In this document: positions 12,305 through 22,362 of the stretch, one piece after another
Numbering within the stretch: position 1 is the first letter of the stretch
Layout of the letters: each line of letters begins with the position of its first letter
Assembly: GCA_003157385.1 (NCBI GenBank)
Contig: PMJJ01000008.1
Coordinates: 2,130 to 42,441 of the forward strand
Origin: Actinomycetota bacterium
GTDB taxonomy: Bacteria > Actinomycetota > Geothermincolia > Fen-727 > Anoxymicrobiaceae
Length of the DNA: 40,312 bases
Reading direction: 5' to 3'
Notes under the pieces: generated by a model
Told to the model about the DNA's origin: nothing
What the model saw: the letters and a program-made list of their open reading frames with translations, nothing else
Database searches by the model: none
Made by a program: the position numbers and the translations under genes

Positions 12305-13423
12305 TCACCGGCCAATGTCCGCGCCCTCCCCTCGCTCGTCGGGGCCATCGCTCTCGCTGTAGAGGTAGTAAGAGGCACAGGTCCCCTCGCTCGAGACCAT
12401 GCACGGGCCGACCGGGTTGTCGGGCGTGCAGCGCCCGCCGAAGAACGGGCAGTCCATCGGCTTGATGCGCCCGCACAGGATCTCGCCGCACCTGCAGCCC
12501 TTGGAGCGGGTGGGCTCGGGGAGCTCGACCTCCCACGTTCCGGCGTCCATCGCGGCGAACTCCTCGCGAATCGCCAGGCCGCTGCCGGGGATCGTGAACA
12601 GCCCGCGCCACTGCGCGTCGCACGACTCGAACACCTGGCTCATGACCTCCAGCGCCCGCGGGTTGCCCTCGGGCCGCACCGCACGCGCATACTCGACCTC
12701 CAGCGAGGCCTCCGAAGCGCCCATCTTCAGCAACCGCAGTATGGCCTGAAGGATGTCGGTCACCTCGAAGCCGGTCACCACGCAAGGCATCGAGAACTCC
12801 ACGGGAAGGAAGGCGTAGGCGTCGCTCCCGATGATCACGCTCACGTGGCCCGGCAGGATGAAGCCGTCGACGTCGAAGTCGTCGAGCCCGACCAGCGCTC
12901 GCAGCGCCGGAGGAACCAGCTTGTGGAAAGAGAGCACCCGGAGGTTGTCTATGCCCTGCCTGCGGGCCTCCAGCATAGTGCCGGCGACCGCCGGCGCCGT
13001 CGTCTCGAAGCCCACCCCCAGGAACACGACTTGAGAGCCTGGCTCCTCGGCGGCTATAGCCAGCGACTCCAGCGGCGAATAGACCACGCGGACCCTGGCT
13101 CCACTGGCGCTTGCCGAGGCGAGCGAGTCCTCCGTCCCCGGCACCTTCATCATGTCACCGAAGGTGGTCAGGATGACCCCGGGTTTCCTGGCCACCGCGA
13201 TCGCCCTGTCGATGTCGGCGTCGGCGGTGACGCAGACCGGGCAACCCGGCCCGCTGATGAGGTCGATGCCCGGCGCGAGCAGCGGCCTCAGGCCCGCCCG
13301 GGAGATCGCCATGGTGTGGGTGCCGCACACCTCCATAAAGGTGCCGTGCGCATCGAGCGCGTCTATCTCGCGCAGCAGCTCGCGCGCCGCCGCCGGCACG
13401 CGGAACTCGTCAATGTATCTCAT
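12305..13423 (-). CDS. hypD: Hydrogenase formation protein HypD
   Basis: FMEVCGTHTMAISRAGLRPLLAPGIDLISGPGCPVCVT; FLGVGFETTAPAVA; C-terminal Cys-rich KGCRCGEILCGRIKPMDCPFFGGRCTPDNPVGPCMVSSEGTC. Confidence 0.97.
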   Translation of the reverse strand: MRYIDEFRVPAAARELLREIDALDAHGTFMEVCGTHTMAISRAGLRPLLAPGIDLISGPGCPVCVTADADIDRAIAVARKPGVILTTFGDMMKVPGTEDSLASASASGARVRVVYSPLESLAIAAEEPGSQVVFLGVGFETTAPAVAGTMLEARRQGIDNLRVLSFHKLVPPALRALVGLDDFDVDGFILPGHVSVIIGSDAYAFLPVEFSMPCVVTGFEVTDILQAILRLLKMGASEASLEVEYARAVRPEGNPRALEVMSQVFESCDAQWRGLFTIPGSGLAIREEFAAMDAGTWEVELPEPTRSKGCRCGEILCGRIKPMDCPFFGGRCTPDNPVGPCMVSSEGTCASYYLYSESDGPDERGEGADIGR

Positions 13424-13695: not shown

Positions 13696-15957
13696 TCACG
13701 AGAGCCTCGCGGCCACCACCGCCTGTCCCAGGGAAATGCCACCGTCGTTGCACGGCACGCGACCGTGCACCATCACGGCGAGTCCGCTCGAGGTCAGGCC
13801 GTCGACCGCCCAGGTCGCGAGCATCTCGTTCTGGAAGACACCGCCCGAGAGCGCGACCCTGCCCAGTCCGGTCGCGTCGGCGATCGCCTCACAGGTCGCG
13901 ATGATCGCGAGCGCCATGGTCGCGTGGAACTTGCCCGCGACCTCGGCCGGCGCCTTGCCGCTGTCGATGTCGATCAGCATCTCGCGGAACACGGGCCGGG
14001 TGTCGACCACCCACGGCTCCGCGCTCCTGTCGAGGATGAAATTGTAATACTCCCGGGTGTCGCGCGCGACCGCCTCCAGCTCGCACGCCGCCTGGCCGTC
14101 GTAGGAGGCCTCGCCGCGAAGCCCGGCAAGCGCGGCCGCCACGTCGAACATCCTGCCCGCGCTGGAAGTGATCGGGGTGTTCACTTTGTTCTTGACCTGG
14201 AAGACCAGCGACGCGGCCTCGGTGTCGTCGATGTCGAACCTGGCGCGCAGCCTCTCCATCGCGGTCTCCTCGTCCTCGAACAGCTCGCTCATCACCCCGT
14301 ACACCATGCGGTAGAGCCGGTAGATGCAGGCGTCCGCGCCCGGCATCGGGTACCGGTACAGGTGAGCCGCCCGGCGGAAGGAGGTCTCGTCGCACACCAG
14401 GAACTCACCGCCCCACACGGTCCCGTCCGTGCCGTATCCGGTGCCGTCCCAGGCCACGCCGATGACCTCTCCGGAGGCGGCGTTGTCTGCAAGACAGCTG
14501 ACTATGTGGGCGTGGTGGTGCTGCACCCCCACCATCGGCAGGCCGAACTCCGGCGCCATCTGCGTGGTTAAGTAGTCCGGGTGCAGGTCGTGCGCCACCA
14601 CCTCCGGCTCCAGCGAGAAGAGCCTCAGCACCGCCGCCAGCGCCTCCTCGAAGTGCTCCAGCTCGCCCTCCGACTCCATGTCGCCGATGTGCTGGCCCAT
14701 GAACGCCTGCTCGCCCCGCAGGACGCAGAAGGTGTTCTTGAGCTCCGCGCCCAGCGCGAGCACCTGTACCTCGGCCGGCGGCGTGATCCGTATCGGGTAA
14801 GGCGCGTAGCCCCTCGCCCTCCTGACCGGATACTCCGCCGTCCGGAAGACGCGGCTGACGGAGTCGTCGTAGCGCACCAGTATGTCGCGGTCGTGCAGCA
14901 GGAAGTGGTCCGCGATGTCGCCGAGCCTGTTCATCGCCTCGTCGTTGTCTATCGCGATCGGCTCGTTGGAGATGTTGCCGCTGGTCATGACCAGCGGCCT
15001 GCCGGCCCCGGCCAGGACCAGGTGGTGAAGCGGGGTGTAGGGAAGGAAGACCCCCTGGCGGTCGAGCCCACCCGCGACCTCGCGGGACAGCGGCGAGCCC
15101 TCCAGCTCCTTCAGCAGCACGATCGGCCTGCGCGGGCTTGCCAGCAGCCGCTCCTCCTCGTCGCTCACCCGGCAGATCGCGCGCGCCTCGTTCACGTCCG
15201 AGACCATCACCGCCAGCGGCTTGCCGTACCTGCGCTTGCGCTCGCGCAGGCACGCCACGGCCTCGTCGTCAGTCGCGTCGCATGCCAGGTGAAACCCGCC
15301 CAGACCTTTGATGGCGACGATCCCACCTTCGCTGAGCAGCCTCGCGGCCTCGCCTGCGGCCTCGCCCTCCATCCTTGCTCCGGTGCGGTCGACCAGCCAG
15401 GCCCTGGGCCCGCAAACCGGGCAGGCGTTGGGTTGGGCGTGAAACCGCCGGTCGGACGGGTCGGCATATTCGGCCGCGCACTCGGCGCACATCTCGAATG
15501 GGCTCATCGATGTCAGCGGCCTGTCGTAGGGCGTGTCGCGGATTATCGTGAAGCGGGGGCCACAGTTGGTGCAGTTGATGAACGGGTAGCGGTGGCGCCT
15601 GTCAGAAGCGTCGAACAGCTCGCGGACGCAGTCGTCGCAGGTGGCCAGGTCCGGCGAGATCAGCACCTGCTTCGAGCCCTCGGCGTCGCTTGCCACGATC
15701 TCGAACGGGCCGGTCGCGATCTCGCCGGCCGAGGCCACGTTCACCCGCTCGACCAGCGCCGCGGCCGGCGCCTCGTCCTTCAAGGCCTTGAGGAAAAGGA
15801 ACAGGCTGTCGCCGTCCCCGCTGGCGAGGATGTCGACCCCCTGGGTGTTGTTGGAGACGCTCCCGCTGATGCCGTAGTCGTTGGCGATCCTGTATACGAA
15901 GGGGCGGAACCCCACTCCCTGCACGATGCCGGAGACCTGTATCCTGAGGCTCCTCAT
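13696..15957 (-). CDS. hypF: Carbamoyltransferase HypF
   Basis: Acylphosphatase-like MRSLRIQVSGIVQGVGFRPFVYRIA, zinc fingers CDDCVRELFD..CTNCGPRFTIIRDTPYDR..CPVCGPR, C-terminal VGVQHHHAHIVSCLAD and VALSGGVFQNEML. Confidence 0.97.
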   Translation of the reverse strand: MRSLRIQVSGIVQGVGFRPFVYRIANDYGISGSVSNNTQGVDILASGDGDSLFLFLKALKDEAPAAALVERVNVASAGEIATGPFEIVASDAEGSKQVLISPDLATCDDCVRELFDASDRRHRYPFINCTNCGPRFTIIRDTPYDRPLTSMSPFEMCAECAAEYADPSDRRFHAQPNACPVCGPRAWLVDRTGARMEGEAAGEAARLLSEGGIVAIKGLGGFHLACDATDDEAVACLRERKRRYGKPLAVMVSDVNEARAICRVSDEEERLLASPRRPIVLLKELEGSPLSREVAGGLDRQGVFLPYTPLHHLVLAGAGRPLVMTSGNISNEPIAIDNDEAMNRLGDIADHFLLHDRDILVRYDDSVSRVFRTAEYPVRRARGYAPYPIRITPPAEVQVLALGAELKNTFCVLRGEQAFMGQHIGDMESEGELEHFEEALAAVLRLFSLEPEVVAHDLHPDYLTTQMAPEFGLPMVGVQHHHAHIVSCLADNAASGEVIGVAWDGTGYGTDGTVWGGEFLVCDETSFRRAAHLYRYPMPGADACIYRLYRMVYGVMSELFEDEETAMERLRARFDIDDTEAASLVFQVKNKVNTPITSSAGRMFDVAAALAGLRGEASYDGQAACELEAVARDTREYYNFILDRSAEPWVVDTRPVFREMLIDIDSGKAPAEVAGKFHATMALAIIATCEAIADATGLGRVALSGGVFQNEMLATWAVDGLTSSGLAVMVHGRVPCNDGGISLGQAVVAARLS

Positions 15958-16424
15958 CAGCCGACGCCCGGCCGTTGGTGCTCCAGCTCCGCGAGCACCA
16001 GGTCGCACACCTCAGGGATGACGGCGGCAACCTTCTCGGTGAGCTGGTCGCCGAACTCCACGTTGTCGACCTGGATGGCGAAGATGACGACCTCCTCGGG
16101 ACACTGCCCCATCAGCCTGGCGGTCATGATGAGCTCGTAGAGCCCGAAGTCGTGGACGGACACGGACAGCGCGGCCTTCTGCTTGACCTCCTGCGGCGTG
16201 AAGCGGAACACCGCCCCAGACTCCTCGCCGGCGTCGATGGCGTCGACGAAGATGGCCTTGCTCGGTCCGTCGAGGAAGTTGAAGAGGTCGGCGCAGTAGA
16301 CGCTCCCCTCCACCAGCTCGACGCCGGAGGGCACCCTGCCCTCGAGGCTCCTTATCACGTGAAGGCCCGCTCCGTCGTCACTCTTTATCAGGTTTCCGAT
16401 CCCGATTATCACTACATCAGACAA
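15957..16424 (-). CDS. Hydrogenase maturation protease (HyaD/HupD-like)
   Basis: VVIIGIGNLIKSDDGAGLHVIRSLEGRVPSGVELVEGSVYCADLFNFLDG..AIFVDAIDAG. Confidence 0.88.
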   Translation of the reverse strand: MSDVVIIGIGNLIKSDDGAGLHVIRSLEGRVPSGVELVEGSVYCADLFNFLDGPSKAIFVDAIDAGEESGAVFRFTPQEVKQKAALSVSVHDFGLYELIMTARLMGQCPEEVVIFAIQVDNVEFGDQLTEKVAAVIPEVCDLVLAELEHQRPGVG

Positions 16425-16552: not shown

Positions 16553-16591
16553 GAAAAGAAGTTGCGCCCCCGGGGATGCCGGAGGCGCAAC
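16553..16591 (-). terminator. Rho-independent terminator downstream of rnfD
   Basis: On the minus strand GTTGCGCC-N15-GGCGCAAC hairpin (arms 16584-16591 and 16561-16568) followed by TTCTTTT. Confidence 0.75.
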
Positions 16592-16617: not shown

Positions 16618-17778
16618 CTAAGCCTTCTCCTCCACCGGCTTGGGCACCGGGGCGGGCTCGGCATAGATCGGCACCTTGTTGAACCAAGGCTTCTTGACCT
16701 CGCCGAACTTGGGCTCGGCTATGTACCGGTCGATCACCAGCGTACCCACGTTCCAGAGCAGGATGGATATCGCCACGCCTTCGGGCAGCGGGCTCACCAG
16801 CCTGATGAGGGCAATGAAAAGGCCTATTCCAAGCCCATAGATCCACTTCCCTCGTCTGGTCATCGGACTGGTGGTCCAGTCTGTCGCCATGAAGAAAGCG
16901 CCCAGCCAGATGCCACCTCCGAGCAGCTGGTACAGCGGATGGTTCCACGTCACCAGCATGATGAAGATGAACGCGGCGAATATGCCGACCGGTATGCGCC
17001 AGTCGATCGTTCTGCGGTACAGCAGGAACGCGGCGCCGATCAGCAGCGCCAGTATCGAGACCTCGCCGAGGCTACCGGATTTGAAGCCCAGCACCATCGA
17101 CCAGAAGGAAGGCCTTCCGTTGGAGACGAGCCAGGTCGCTCCGACAGGCGTCGGGCCGGTCACCGTGCTGACGAGCATCCTGCCGCTCTTGAGAAGCGAG
17201 AGCGGTGTGGCGTTCGTGACCGTGTTGACGTAAAGCTTCCCGCCGAGCCCCTGGTACACTACCCTGCCGGAAACGGCGTTGTTGATGACGGTCTGCACGG
17301 GCGTGAAGAACCCTGTCGCCCGCCAGAAGAAAGGCTTCACGAACTTGGTCGTATAGAGAGCCAGCGGCGAGATCATCAGCGCCACGCGCCCGAACAGCGC
17401 GGGGTTGAAGACGTTCTTGCCCAGCCCTCCGAACAGCTCCTTCGCGACCGCGACCGCGAGGAAGGCGCCGATTGCCACTACCCAGAGGGGCGTGGTCGGC
17501 GGCAGCAGGAACGCGAACAGGATTCCCGTCACCATAGCGCTCATGTCGCGTAGAGAATGGGGCCTGCGAAGGATCGCGCGCATGATCAGCTCTGAGAGAG
17601 CCGCCACTATGCACGAGACCAGCATCACGTAGAAGGCCTGGAACCCGAACACGATGATCGCCATTATGGCCGCCGGGGTGAGCGCGATCAGGACGTCGGC
17701 CATCCCGCGCTCGATCGTCTGCCCTTTCTCATGGAGATGGGGGGAGACTGTATACATGAATTTTTCTGCCACTTTCAC
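16618..17778 (-). CDS. rnfD: RnfD/NqrB-family membrane subunit
   Basis: SPHLHEKGQTIERGMADVLIALTPA, RRPHSLRDMSAMVTGILFAFLLPPTTPLWVVAIGAFLAVAVAKELFGGLGKNVFNPALFGR, TNATPL, FFMATDWTTSPMTRRGKWIYG. Confidence 0.93.
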   Translation of the reverse strand: MKVAEKFMYTVSPHLHEKGQTIERGMADVLIALTPAAIMAIIVFGFQAFYVMLVSCIVAALSELIMRAILRRPHSLRDMSAMVTGILFAFLLPPTTPLWVVAIGAFLAVAVAKELFGGLGKNVFNPALFGRVALMISPLALYTTKFVKPFFWRATGFFTPVQTVINNAVSGRVVYQGLGGKLYVNTVTNATPLSLLKSGRMLVSTVTGPTPVGATWLVSNGRPSFWSMVLGFKSGSLGEVSILALLIGAAFLLYRRTIDWRIPVGIFAAFIFIMLVTWNHPLYQLLGGGIWLGAFFMATDWTTSPMTRRGKWIYGLGIGLFIALIRLVSPLPEGVAISILLWNVGTLVIDRYIAEPKFGEVKKPWFNKVPIYAEPAPVPKPVEEKA

Positions 17779-17784
17779 CCCTCC

Positions 17785-19110
17785 CTATCTCTTCTTCAAA
17801 GCCGCGATCTCGGCTTTAGCTTTTCTTACGTACTGTACGTGAGGGATGTAGGCCGGGCAGGTGTACGAGCAGCAGCCGCACTCGAAGCAGTCCATCGTGC
17901 CCCACAACTCCGCCTTTGCCCAGTCTTCCTTCTGTACAGCTTCCACGATGTAGTTCGGCATCAGGTACATCGGGCACGCCTCGACGCACTTGGTGCATCG
18001 CACGCATCCGTGCTCTTCGCGGATATCCACCAGTTCGTCCGTCAGGACGAGCACTCCGGAAGATCCCTTCACCACGTTGGCGATGGGCTCTTCCTGCGCG
18101 AAGCCCGTCATCGGCCCGCCCATGATGAGCTTGACCGGTCCGTCCGTCGTGCCGCCTGCGGCCTCGATCAGCGCCGCCACCGGCGTGCCGATCTTGGCGA
18201 GGAAGTTTGACGGGTTCTTGATGCCCTGGCCCGTCACGGTGAGCACCCTCTCATAGAGCGGCTTGCCCGTGGACGCGGCCTCGTGCATGGCTATCGCGGT
18301 CCCCACATTCTGGACCAGGCAGCCGACCTCGGCCGGCAGCTTGCCCGGCGGGACCTTCCGTCCCGTCACCGCGCTGATGAGCTGCTTCTCCGAGCCTTCG
18401 GGGTACTTGACCTCGAGGATCTCGACCTCGATGTTGGGCTCGCTCGACGCGGCGGAGCGGACCTTCTCGACGGCGTCCATCTTGTTCGCCTCGATACCGA
18501 TCACGCCGCGCTCGGCGCCGACGCCCTTCATGAACAGCTTCAACCCGGCCACCAGGTCGGCCGGCCTCTCCAGCATCAGCCTGTGGTCGCAGGTCAGGAA
18601 CGGCTCGCACTCGCATGCGTTGATGATCACCACGTCGACCGGCTTGTCCTTGGGTGGGCTCAGCTTGACGTGCGTCGGGAACGCAGCGCCTCCCATCCCC
18701 ACCAGGCCGGCGTTCTTGGCGATCGCCTTGATGTCGTCCGCGCTGAGCTCGTCAACAGACTTGCCCGGCTTCGGCTCCCACTTGGGCTGGTTCGCGTCGG
18801 TGGTGATGACCACGCTCTTCACCTTAGCACCGGTGAAGTTCGGGATGTCCTCGATGGCCTTGACGACGCCGGCGACCGAGGAGAACACAGGGGCGGACAC
18901 GAATGCTTCGGTCTCCCCGATCTTCTGTCCCACCGACACCCTGTCCCCCACGGAGACGAGCGGGCTGTTGGGAGCGCCAATGTGCTGATTCAACGGTATT
19001 GTCACTTCAGCAGGAACAGGCGCCTGTTCGATAGCTTTGGAGGAGGCAAGTTGCTTGTTGTAAGGTGGGTGGATGCCTCCTTTGAAGCTTTTATAGCGTG
19101 TTTTTGCCAA
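17785..19110 (-). CDS. rnfC: RnfC-family electron transport subunit (FMN/NADH-type, 2x[4Fe-4S])
   Basis: FKGGIHPPYNKQLASSKAIE, AGLVGMGGAAFPTHVKLSPP, INACECEPFLTCDHRLMLE, CVRCTKCVEACPMYLMP, CFECGCCSYTCPAYIPHVQYVRKAK. Confidence 0.96.
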   Translation of the reverse strand: MAKTRYKSFKGGIHPPYNKQLASSKAIEQAPVPAEVTIPLNQHIGAPNSPLVSVGDRVSVGQKIGETEAFVSAPVFSSVAGVVKAIEDIPNFTGAKVKSVVITTDANQPKWEPKPGKSVDELSADDIKAIAKNAGLVGMGGAAFPTHVKLSPPKDKPVDVVIINACECEPFLTCDHRLMLERPADLVAGLKLFMKGVGAERGVIGIEANKMDAVEKVRSAASSEPNIEVEILEVKYPEGSEKQLISAVTGRKVPPGKLPAEVGCLVQNVGTAIAMHEAASTGKPLYERVLTVTGQGIKNPSNFLAKIGTPVAALIEAAGGTTDGPVKLIMGGPMTGFAQEEPIANVVKGSSGVLVLTDELVDIREEHGCVRCTKCVEACPMYLMPNYIVEAVQKEDWAKAELWGTMDCFECGCCSYTCPAYIPHVQYVRKAKAEIAALKKR

Positions 19111-19123
19111 TCAGACCACCTTC

Positions 19124-19615
19124 CTACTCGGACTTCTTGACTACGAGGCTGGGGAAGCGTGAGGACGCGGCCCAGCGAGCGTAGAGGTAGATTACGTTGA
19201 CCAGCACCAGGATCCACAGGAATATCTCGTACGTCTTGAATATCCCGGCCACCCCGCCGAACGCGTTCACCATTCCGTGCAGCCAGCCGAAAGGTACGTT
19301 CACTGCAAATGTGAGGAACCAGAACCAGATGGCTAGTATGGCCAGCACGATCCTGAAGGCGCCAAGCGGCTCGTTCCAGCCCTTGGGCCTTCCGATCAAC
19401 GCGTAATACAGGTAGACGACCGAGATGAGCGCGAACGCCCACACCACGAGCCAGTTAAGGTCTCGCATGAGCGCCATGCTCCAGGGGTACCTCCAACCCG
19501 AAGTGAAAGCGTGAAACAGGTAGAACCCCGAGTAGAGCGTCAGCGCAAGCACGCCGAGGTATGCCCAGTACATGGACTTTGCCGGTCCTGGAATAAAGAC
19601 CTTCTTCTCCTTCAC
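19124..19615 (-). CDS. Uncharacterised 4-TM integral membrane protein, putative hydrogenase membrane subunit
   Basis: 163 aa with four hydrophobic helices; sits between the hydrogenase large subunit and rnfC, 13 nt from rnfC. Confidence 0.75.
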   Translation of the reverse strand: MKEKKVFIPGPAKSMYWAYLGVLALTLYSGFYLFHAFTSGWRYPWSMALMRDLNWLVVWAFALISVVYLYYALIGRPKGWNEPLGAFRIVLAILAIWFWFLTFAVNVPFGWLHGMVNAFGGVAGIFKTYEIFLWILVLVNVIYLYARWAASSRFPSLVVKKSE

Positions 19616-19627
19616 ACGGACACCCCC

Positions 19628-21205
19628 TTAGACTACTCGGAATTCCTTGACGCTGTTGTTCTCGGGATGGATGATGTGCACCGCGCAGGCGATGCAGGGG
19701 TCGAACGACCGCACGCACCTGACGACGTTGATCGGGTTGTTTACGTCGGGCACCGGGATGCCGATGAGAGAATTCTCGATCGGTCCCCTGACGCCGCTCT
19801 TGTCGCGGGGCGAGCCGTTCCACGTGGTGGGCACGACCGCCTGGTAGTTCCCGGTCTTTCCGCCGCTGATGGTGATCCAGTGCCCGAGCGCCCCACGAGG
19901 ACCTTCCACCAGTCCCATGCCGTTGGAGCTGTTCGGGATCTGCTTGCCCTTGGGGTCCCAGATGTCGCTGCCGATTCCCAGCGTGAGCTGGTCCAGCCAC
20001 TTGTCCATCTCCAGGGACACGAGCAGGGCCTCGACCGCGCGCGCGCCGATCCTCGGGATGATCCCGAACTTCACGGGCGGCGTCAGTACGCCGATGGCCG
20101 TGGCCAGCGCCATGAACACCGGGTCCTTCTTTATCAGCTGTCGCGCCAGCGGACCGACCTCCATCGGCTTGCCGTTGTAGCGAGGAGCCTTCAGGAACGA
20201 GTACGCTCCCGACTTGGTGACCTGGGGCTCGGTCTTGCCCACGGCGGGCTTGAGGCCTTCGGTCGAGTCGTTGTACCAGGAGTACTTGACCGACTCTGTT
20301 ATCTGCTGGTTGTTGAACGCGCTGGGTGTGAGATTGTAGTTCTCGATGATGCCCGACGGGAAGTACTTGTCCGTCCCCGCCTGGTTCTGGTCGAACCCGC
20401 CGTAGGCCATGAAGTTGCCGCCCGAGTCGCCGGCCTTGATGAACGCCGAGTAGGCCGGCATCGTCGCGACGGCCTTGACGTCCGCCACGTACACGTCGGC
20501 GATCCAGGCCTGCAGGTCGTGCAGCCTCGAGCGGAACGCCGCGATGTTGGTCAGTGTCGGTGGGGTGGTTACTCCACCCGGGATCGTGCCCACGAACGAA
20601 GGCATGCGGCCGTAGAAGATGGTCAGCATCTCCTGGGCTTTCTTGCGCATCTCGAACGCCTGCACGTAGTGTCCCACCAGCTCGGTCGCCAGGTTGGCGT
20701 CGCCCGGTCCTCCCGGCTCGCCGATGTAGTCCGGCGACGCATAGCGGGGCAGGAACGGGTACAGGTCGTTGTTCTTCGCCAGGACGGCGATATTGGCCTG
20801 CAGCAGCTTGAGCGCCGGATCCGTACCGCTGTACTTCAGCACCGCGGTGACATCGACGTAGTCGAGCGCCACCAGGTGGTAGAAGTGCAGGATGTGCGAC
20901 TGGATGTAGTTCGCGCCCAGTGCCAGGTTTCGGATCAGCCTCGCGTTGTTGGGGAGTTTTACCCCCATCGCCGAGTCGAGGTTGTAAGAAGCCGCTGTGC
21001 CGTGCACCAGCGGGCAGACGCCGCATATGCGCTCCATGACCTGCTGCGCGTCCCAGGGATGCTTCCCTTGGATGAGCATCTCGTAGCCGCGGAACATGGT
21101 GCCCGATGACCAGGCATCTGTGACCACGCCATTGGAGACCTCTACGTCGATGCGCAGGTGGCCTTCAATCCTGGTTACGGGGTCAATGCTTATTACTTGC
21201 GCCAC
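19628..21205 (-). CDS. [NiFe] hydrogenase large subunit (group 1-type)
   Basis: IDPVTRIEGHLRIDVEV, MERICGVCPLVHG (L1), C-terminal DPCIACAVH|IIHPENNSVKEFRVV (L2 motif plus 15-aa cleavable extension). Confidence 0.97.
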   Translation of the reverse strand: MAQVISIDPVTRIEGHLRIDVEVSNGVVTDAWSSGTMFRGYEMLIQGKHPWDAQQVMERICGVCPLVHGTAASYNLDSAMGVKLPNNARLIRNLALGANYIQSHILHFYHLVALDYVDVTAVLKYSGTDPALKLLQANIAVLAKNNDLYPFLPRYASPDYIGEPGGPGDANLATELVGHYVQAFEMRKKAQEMLTIFYGRMPSFVGTIPGGVTTPPTLTNIAAFRSRLHDLQAWIADVYVADVKAVATMPAYSAFIKAGDSGGNFMAYGGFDQNQAGTDKYFPSGIIENYNLTPSAFNNQQITESVKYSWYNDSTEGLKPAVGKTEPQVTKSGAYSFLKAPRYNGKPMEVGPLARQLIKKDPVFMALATAIGVLTPPVKFGIIPRIGARAVEALLVSLEMDKWLDQLTLGIGSDIWDPKGKQIPNSSNGMGLVEGPRGALGHWITISGGKTGNYQAVVPTTWNGSPRDKSGVRGPIENSLIGIPVPDVNNPINVVRCVRSFDPCIACAVHIIHPENNSVKEFRVV

Positions 21206-22362
21206 TATTTCTCACCACCTTCGGCCTCTTCAGGCTTGCTTCCTAGTTGTTTGTACAGGTAATGGGCCCCTATGCCGACCGCGGTAGCGCCGGCGGCCAC
21301 CCACCCGAGTACGTCCGTCGATGGCGAGATGCCCGCGAAGTTGACGTTGGGCAGAGGCTGGTAGAGCGGGGACAGGTCCTTGTAGAACTGGGGTGATGCG
21401 CACCCGTGGCACGGGGCGTTGGCGCCCACGCACCAGTTGACCGCCGAGTTCCAGCGGCGGGTCGGGCAGTCAGCGTAAGTGACCGGCCCTTTACAGCCCT
21501 GCTTGAACATGCAGAGCTTCATGTCGGGGTTCTGGTCGTTCCAGTCTTCCAGGAAGAGGCCCGCGTCGAACGCGGCGCGCCTCTCGCAGTTCTCGTGGAT
21601 GAGCTGGCCGAAGAACGTCTTCGACATCAAGTTGCTGTTGAGGTCCAGCGGCTTGCCTCCCGGGAGCACCTTCAGGGCGATCAGCGCCTGCAGCGCGGTC
21701 CCCAGGAACCAGTCCGGATGCGACGGGCACCCGCCGACGTTGACCATCGGCTTCTTGGGGTCGATCTGCGCGACGATGTCGCTCACCTTGGTCGCCCCCG
21801 TGACACCCGCGTTGGCCGCCGGTATCCCGCCGAACGACGCGCAGTTGCCGTTCGCGATGACGGCCGCCGCGCCGGGCACGAGCTCCTGCATCCACTCGTG
21901 GACTGTCTTGTCTGCGGGGACCTGAACGGAGGTCCCATCCAGGTTCTTCTTCTTGGTGTCGTTCAGGCCGAACGTGCAGTAATCACCATTCTCGCTGAGC
22001 GGGATCGGACCCTCGACCACCAGGACGTAGATGCCCTTTCCGGCCTTGGCCGCGGCTACCGTGTCGTTGATCGCCTGAACCGCCGTCTGTCCGGTACCGC
22101 CCATCACGTTCGGATGATAGCGAACCGAGAGCTTGTCGAGCACTACCTCAGCGACTCCCGGATAGTTGGAGTTCAGGAACGAGACCGAGCACCCCGTGCA
22201 GTTCTGTCCCTGTATCCAGATTATCGGGGGTTTCCCGCTGGTGGAAAGCTGCTCTAGAGCTTTCGCCAGTTGCGGGATCATCGCTTCCGACAGGCCTAAT
22301 AGGGCCGCCGTTGCGCCAGCGTGCTTCAAGAACTGGCGCCTGGTTACCATTTTACCCGTCAA
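21205..22362 (-). CDS. [NiFe] hydrogenase small subunit, Tat signal and C-terminal TM anchor
   Basis: TTG start with AGGAGGTGA; twin-arginine RRQFLK; IIWIQGQNCTGCSVSFLN; GNCASFGGIPAANAG; GGCPSHPDWFLGT; HENCERRAAFDAG; ADCPTRRWNSAVNWCVGANAPCHGC; terminal VLGWVAAGATAVGIGAHYLY. Confidence 0.97.
   Translation of the reverse strand: MTGKMVTRRQFLKHAGATAALLGLSEAMIPQLAKALEQLSTSGKPPIIWIQGQNCTGCSVSFLNSNYPGVAEVVLDKLSVRYHPNVMGGTGQTAVQAINDTVAAAKAGKGIYVLVVEGPIPLSENGDYCTFGLNDTKKKNLDGTSVQVPADKTVHEWMQELVPGAAAVIANGNCASFGGIPAANAGVTGATKVSDIVAQIDPKKPMVNVGGCPSHPDWFLGTALQALIALKVLPGGKPLDLNSNLMSKTFFGQLIHENCERRAAFDAGLFLEDWNDQNPDMKLCMFKQGCKGPVTYADCPTRRWNSAVNWCVGANAPCHGCASPQFYKDLSPLYQPLPNVNFAGISPSTDVLGWVAAGATAVGIGAHYLYKQLGSKPEEAEGGEK

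Follow-up and report, generated by a model that had tools for sequence, protein, structure and literature searches.

The 40,312-nucleotide stretch analysed here (the window), from contig PMJJ01000008.1 of an Actinomycetota draft genome, contains an operon in which the genes for an exported [NiFe] hydrogenase run directly into those for RnfC and RnfD, two subunits of the Rnf complex (RnfABCDEG, a ferredoxin:NAD+ oxidoreductase). The five encoded proteins probably make up an extracytoplasmic H2:NAD(+) oxidoreductase bound to the membrane, and the arrangement suggests an undescribed route by which external H2 and cytoplasmic NADH are interconverted. The five consecutive open reading frames lie on the minus strand and end at an intrinsic terminator, with a protein of four transmembrane helices (4-TM) encoded between the hydrogenase and the Rnf genes:

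21205..22362, minus strand: [NiFe] hydrogenase small subunit (TIGR00391, PF14720, PF10518; cysteine conservation)
19628..21205, minus strand: [NiFe] hydrogenase large subunit (NF033181, PF00374; nickel motifs; PDB matches)
19124..19615, minus strand: 4-TM protein, a HyaC-type cytochrome b homologue of 163 residues (hhalign, AlphaFold, Foldseek)
17785..19110, minus strand: RnfC, modular type (TIGR01945; full-length alignment to solved RnfC; cysteine conservation; tree)
16618..17778, minus strand: RnfD, hydrogenase type (TIGR01946, PF03116; motif alignment; loop lengths)
16561..16591, minus strand: intrinsic terminator of the operon (13-pair stem at 16591-16561, then the T-rich tail TTCTTTT; folding z = -3.6)

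The intergenic gaps from the small subunit to RnfD are -1, 12, 13 and 6 nt, and no RnfA, RnfB, RnfE or RnfG was found in the 40 kb window. This agrees with an earlier note on this DNA, which had described a tight minus-strand tandem ending at a strong terminator; domain matches of the window's proteins also agree with its statement that the flanks hold hyp and selenium genes and no rnfA, rnfB, rnfE or rnfG. We sampled 31 genomes of its uncultured class, in which the named relatives are Actinomycetota metagenome-assembled genomes, including Candidatus Solincola species. In 23 of the 24 class genomes that encode this hydrogenase, the genes for the 4-TM protein, RnfC and RnfD come next in unchanged order, without rnfA, rnfB, rnfE or rnfG (20 loci are complete and three are cut by a contig end), so that the co-occurrence on which the note's proposal turned is conserved in relatives. 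Because the gene order repeats in this way, the arrangement is not due to chance. The exception, G004 (L051:3483-5039), has a lone large subunit on a contig that lacks the small subunit, the 4-TM protein, RnfC and RnfD, reflecting either decay or an assembly fault. A different situation is seen in G002 (L103:4989-7522), where RnfC-RnfD stands alone at the usual site beside the Se/S carrier gene and selD, and the genes for the small subunit, large subunit and 4-TM protein are gone. The branch leading to the G002 RnfC is very long (0.92 in the RnfC tree), as would be expected from the apparent loss of its hydrogenase partner.

The hydrogenase itself has the features of a group 1 [NiFe] enzyme, namely two nickel CxxC motifs and a Tat-exported small subunit with an Fe-S relay. 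The small subunit matches hydA (TIGR00391) with 259 bits against a cut-off of 179.5 and also matches NiFe_hyd_SSU_C (PF14720); its Tat signal reads TRRQFLK, with TAT_signal (PF10518) barely above cut-off. It carries ligands for three [4Fe-4S] clusters and a C-terminal GWVAAGATAVGIGAHYLYKQLG helix. The ligand cysteines are kept in 24/24 class sequences, save that C55 and C58 are seen in 23/24, one sequence being truncated. Three [4Fe-4S] clusters are predicted because the medial-cluster position, a proline in some group 1 enzymes, is occupied by Cys311, which is present in all 24 class sequences and in six of eight outgroup sequences. The large subunit matches NF033181 (668.6, cut-off 600) and PF00374, and its nickel motifs RICGVC and DPCIACAVH (with Cys, not Sec), which contain the two CxxC, are conserved across the class. 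Its top PDB matches are NiFeSe hydrogenases. The window's genome has a second hydrogenase-like pair of large and small subunits (L165:4724-7103) with no evident export signal, which is probably cytoplasmic and group 3-like.

The sequences of RnfC and RnfD support the presence of the ligands needed for a path to NAD+. RnfC (TIGR01945, 530 against a cut-off of 246) can be aligned with solved RnfC over its full length and retains the NAD/FMN motif and the eight cysteines for two [4Fe-4S] clusters; in the conservation count, one or two regular-expression matches are missing in the glycine motif. Three further cysteines (166, 174 and 264) occur in most or all modular RnfC sequences and are mostly absent from the canonical RnfC of the class. 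RnfD scores 273 with TIGR01946 (cut-off 207), and PF03116 is its only domain match, with no fused NAD domain. Its FMN threonine, T191 (NTVTNAT-PL), is invariant in all 21 hydrogenase-type sequences and lies in a stretch that matches A. woodii TVTTATPLALLK; the flavin transferase ApbE is encoded in the window's genome. In one canonical-Rnf RnfD of the class (L111:5774-6820) the motif is GGASPL, against xxATPL elsewhere, with serine replacing the FMN threonine.

The outer loop that bears T191 sets the hydrogenase-type RnfD apart, at 104-110 residues compared with 58-64 in the type found beside formate dehydrogenase (FDH; see below), a difference of about 45 residues. A second motif, STVTGPT-PVGATW, lies 19 residues past the first, such that residues 185-216 form a tandem repeat; Gly208, Thr210 and Pro211 are invariant, with Thr210 in 21/21 sequences. 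The repeat is degenerate, however, since proline replaces the alanine of the flavinylation motif in most sequences, and for that reason we offer a second covalent FMN at Thr210 as a hypothesis. The AlphaFold model of RnfD is poor (pLDDT 57) and too weak for placing the outer loop or the second motif. No FMN_bind domain was found in any of the five operon proteins.

The 4-TM protein is a homologue of HyaC-type cytochrome b without histidine heme sites. It had no family match in the HMM library scan, and Pfam and PDB sequence searches with its family gave chance matches only. Outside the class, the gene that follows the large subunit often encodes a heme cytochrome b of about 200 residues, and hhalign of the 4-TM family against seven of these outside-class cytochromes b gave a probability of 97.4 and a score of 75.6 over 141 columns. 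The controls (30 column-shuffled alignments, a reversed alignment and three unrelated membrane families) all scored 23.3 or less. Foldseek with the AlphaFold model of the protein (pLDDT 79, pTM 0.69) ranked two cytochrome b chains of E. coli hydrogenase-1 first, 6g94 A and B, at probability 1.00 and TM-score 0.62 with E-values of 0.015 and 0.029. The four invariant histidines of cytochrome b align with Tyr16, Asn53, Tyr129 and Tyr143 of the 4-TM protein. Kinship with NrfD, TatC or RnfD was ruled out, the profile scores being 15.5 or less versus 75.6 for cytochrome b. In a sample of 297 genomes of the phylum the family occurs only beside this hydrogenase, apart from six weak matches, at least two of which (G058 and G063) are cytochrome b genes. 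Because this cytochrome b homologue lacks heme ligands, electrons probably bypass it: a path through the protein appears unlikely from its sequence, a role as adaptor, dock or anchor is more likely, and the small subunit more likely passes electrons straight to RnfD than via the 4-TM protein.

Based upon these observations, we infer assembly of the five proteins into one complex, an electron path through it, NAD+ as the acceptor and reversibility. The hydrogenase heterodimer would be exported by the Tat pathway and sit on the outer membrane face, where its three [4Fe-4S] clusters would relay electrons from H2 to the covalent FMN of RnfD. From there they would cross the membrane by way of the RnfD riboflavin and reach cytoplasmic NAD+ through RnfC, with its two [4Fe-4S] clusters and its FMN. 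The 4-TM protein would descend from a cytochrome b, have shed the hemes and serve today as an anchor or dock between the hydrogenase and RnfD. Such a circuit would amount to the second half of Rnf, with the hydrogenase standing in for RnfABEG; in the solved Rnf path, electrons run from the RnfG FMN on the outer side through the RnfD FMN and riboflavin to RnfC and NAD+ (PMC12174285). Electrons flowing inward from H2 would carry negative charge in, an electrogenic process that would conserve energy. The E0' values of -414 mV for H2 and -320 mV for NAD (PMC9430772) make the forward reaction exergonic when H2 is plentiful. At 10 Pa the H2 couple, calculated from these values, lies at about -296 mV, and NADH can therefore drive H2 evolution; when H2 is scarce, or when the membrane potential contributes, the complex could run in reverse and evolve H2 from NADH.

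The same pair of Rnf subunits is also found with other exported enzymes of the class. The order formate dehydrogenase alpha, beta, RnfC, RnfD occurs at 18 loci in 17 class genomes (L093-L108, L110, L148). At L104 the alpha subunit matches TIGR01553 (formate dehydrogenase-N alpha) with 939.6 versus a cut-off of 814.2, and at L093 the alpha reading frame is in two pieces with the Tat signal on the first, a pattern as from a candidate selenocysteine TGA. The beta subunit retains its C-terminal TM helix and is directly followed by RnfC, in the place of the FdnI-type cytochrome b that one would expect, and these loci have no 4-TM protein. At a further locus (L109:1366-6890), RnfC-RnfD is flanked by an Fe-S protein on one side and a PhsA-like Tat-type molybdoenzyme on the other; another (L146:5-1832) begins in the same way, with RnfC adjoining an Fe-S protein. 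Judged by identity, each of the 31 class genomes has one or more RnfC of the modular kind, the second copies in G014 and G029 and the split copies in G030 being placed on partial context. Since it accompanies formate dehydrogenase-N and a PhsA-like enzyme as well as the hydrogenase, RnfC-RnfD is a portable pair for exported oxidoreductases, and its occurrence after formate dehydrogenase-N, another exported enzyme with an outer-face electron exit, supports the H2:NAD(+) oxidoreductase proposed here. More tentatively, this half-Rnf could be an undescribed family of transmembrane NAD(H) modules carried by hydrogenase, formate dehydrogenase-N and a PhsA-like enzyme, in which a heme-stripped cytochrome b docks the hydrogenase version and the duplicated motif of RnfD (Thr191 and Thr210) may hold a second covalent FMN in place of the RnfG flavin. 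Beyond the class, all 15 RnfC loci examined are canonical rnfCDGEAB operons, and one contig scan of other phyla found hydrogenase matches in Firmicutes, a Zixibacterium and other lineages with no adjoining RnfC or RnfD.

An obvious alternative is that RnfC and RnfD are spare subunits which serve or modulate a complete Rnf in trans, and RnfA/E is indeed present in 27 of the 31 class genomes. Every full class operon examined, however, has the order rnfCDGEAB with its own C and D (10 complete and two cut by a contig end), and four genomes, including that of the window, have modular RnfCD and no RnfA/E (G000, 85% complete; G005, 77%; G018, 91%; G015, 99%). The window's draft genome (2.58 Mb in 128 contigs) was searched family by family. 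It has one RnfD and one full-length RnfC; no member of the RnfA/E family (PF02508) was found in the whole draft genome or at any hydrogenase locus scanned, neither the window nor 13 homologous loci had a match to RnfB or RnfG, and outside the window there was one weak FMN_bind match. The possibility raised by the earlier note, that an Rnf lacking its own C and D is encoded elsewhere in the genome and served in trans, was thus not borne out by the search for a complete rnf operon. The modular RnfC also belongs to a separate branch: RnfC proteins of full Rnf are 43-50% identical to that of the window and modular copies 58-81%, and a maximum-likelihood RnfC tree splits the two sets with 100/100 support. 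Given the C and D of the full operons and the four genomes without RnfA/E, we ruled out service in trans as a working explanation and consider it highly improbable.

Several points nonetheless weigh against an H2:NAD(+) oxidoreductase. The complex and its activity are read from genes, and the RnfD model is weak. Rnf enters RnfD via the FMN of RnfG, and an equivalent donor flavin is here only putative. For the window's genome alone, at 85% complete, an RnfABEG set may have been missed. Finally, a quinone route may exist, as there are UbiA-family genes. It is on this last point that the most conventional reading would build, in which an ordinary uptake hydrogenase reduces quinone via the 4-TM protein and the co-transcribed RnfC and RnfD have a separate role. 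The homology of the 4-TM protein to the quinone-reducing cytochrome b of hydrogenases and the UbiA-family prenyltransferases of most class genomes, whose gene neighbourhoods gave no further clue, would fit, but with the four invariant histidines replaced there is no visible heme path, and the class almost entirely lacks the futalosine menaquinone family (the classical men genes were not searched). The presence of RnfCD after FDH at class loci that have no 4-TM protein, and the fast evolution of the leftover RnfC after hydrogenase loss in G002, also speak against a separate role, and we regard this reading as unlikely. We give a similarly low probability to the same complex working mainly in reverse, with NADH-driven, membrane-potential-assisted release of H2 (and formate) that disposes of electrons in a syntrophic or fermentative lifestyle. 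The three [4Fe-4S] clusters predicted from the medial cysteine, the NiFeSe hydrogenases as nearest solved enzymes and an H2 couple above the NAD couple at low H2 are in keeping with this, although the medial cysteine is not specific, being found in most of the outgroup group 1 enzymes, and the direction of flow is not readable from sequence. It is quite unlikely, in our view, that the modular RnfC takes a carrier other than NAD(H), such as NADP, ferredoxin or a protein partner; the complex would then still oxidise H2 across the membrane, with another partner on the inner side. RnfC-type subunits have been recruited elsewhere (RnfC2 in MetVF; PMC9430772), and the three additional cysteines of the modular RnfC would be compatible with a new partner, but the NAD/FMN domain aligns fully with that of solved RnfC. 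Of the transmembrane H2:NAD(+) oxidoreductase put forward in the earlier note, we would therefore retain the conserved operon without RnfABEG, the independence of RnfCD from a complex served in trans and the ligands for the path; its electron crossing via the 4-TM protein is unlikely, the heme-ligand histidines being replaced.

The protein families involved are all known and it is their combination that appears to be new within the literature searched, where hydrogenase- or FDH-linked RnfCD was not described and only complete Rnf or unrelated uses were found; an earlier mention is possible in work on the Wood-Ljungdahl pathway of Actinobacteria. The operon resembles group 1 [NiFe] uptake hydrogenases of the HyaABC type in its Tat-exported small subunit, its large subunit and its HyaC-homologous membrane protein, but this last has no heme ligands and the predicted acceptor is RnfCD/NAD+, not quinone. 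The sister loci likewise recall formate dehydrogenase-N (FdnGHI), with an alpha subunit above the TIGR01553 cut-off and a beta subunit with a C-terminal TM helix, and differ in having RnfC-RnfD in place of an FdnI-type cytochrome b. The proposed net reaction is identical to that of the soluble NAD-reducing hydrogenases (Hox, group 3d), which are cytoplasmic, use a complex-I-type NAD module and involve no membrane crossing. With Rnf the operon shares RnfC and RnfD, complete with the FMN threonine, cluster cysteines and NAD/FMN domain, and the half path between the outer face and NAD+ (PMC12174285). It differs in having no RnfA, RnfB, RnfE or RnfG, and hence no RnfA/RnfE pair with its intramembrane [2Fe-2S] cluster, in the exported hydrogenase that would feed the outer face, and in the longer outer loop and second motif of the hydrogenase-type RnfD. 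Among the closest parallels, the NQR/RNF-like single-path systems (Meheust et al. 2021, PMC8238504) have been reported chiefly from Actinobacteria and CPR and are also partial Rnf complexes, with an RnfD/NqrB-only transmembrane path linking NAD(H) to the outer face. Those systems have an NqrF-type NAD domain fused to the membrane domain rather than a separate RnfC, and their outer partner is an FMN-binding domain, whereas here it is a hydrogenase or formate dehydrogenase, with no RnfG-like match in the window. In a second near parallel, the MetVF-RnfC2 methylene-THF reductase, an RnfC homologue likewise gives another enzyme a portable NAD(H) module, but this reductase is cytoplasmic, has no RnfD and does not cross the membrane (PMC9430772).

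The flanks of the operon contain genes for hydrogenase maturation on one side and, on the other, genes for a Se/S carrier, SelD, a TusA-like protein, SelA and SelB, with TatC further out. The maturation genes are:

15957..16424, minus strand: HycI-type hydrogenase maturation protease, accessory (PF01750)
13696..16008, minus strand: HypF, accessory (PF07503, PF17788, PF22521)
12305..13423, minus strand: HypD, accessory (PF01924)

If the proposed complex is correct, it would join the oxidation of H2 or formate outside the cell directly to the cytoplasmic NAD pool by means of flavins, without quinones or cytochromes. This would represent an unrecognised form of energy conservation, or of disposal of NADH electrons, working near thermodynamic equilibrium. 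It would also mean that the second half of Rnf has been isolated in nature as a working unit, in which case a complex that has RnfD only would allow a test of whether ions are pumped at RnfD or at RnfA-E, which is disputed. Finally, the 4-TM protein shows how a cytochrome b may turn into a heme-free adaptor.

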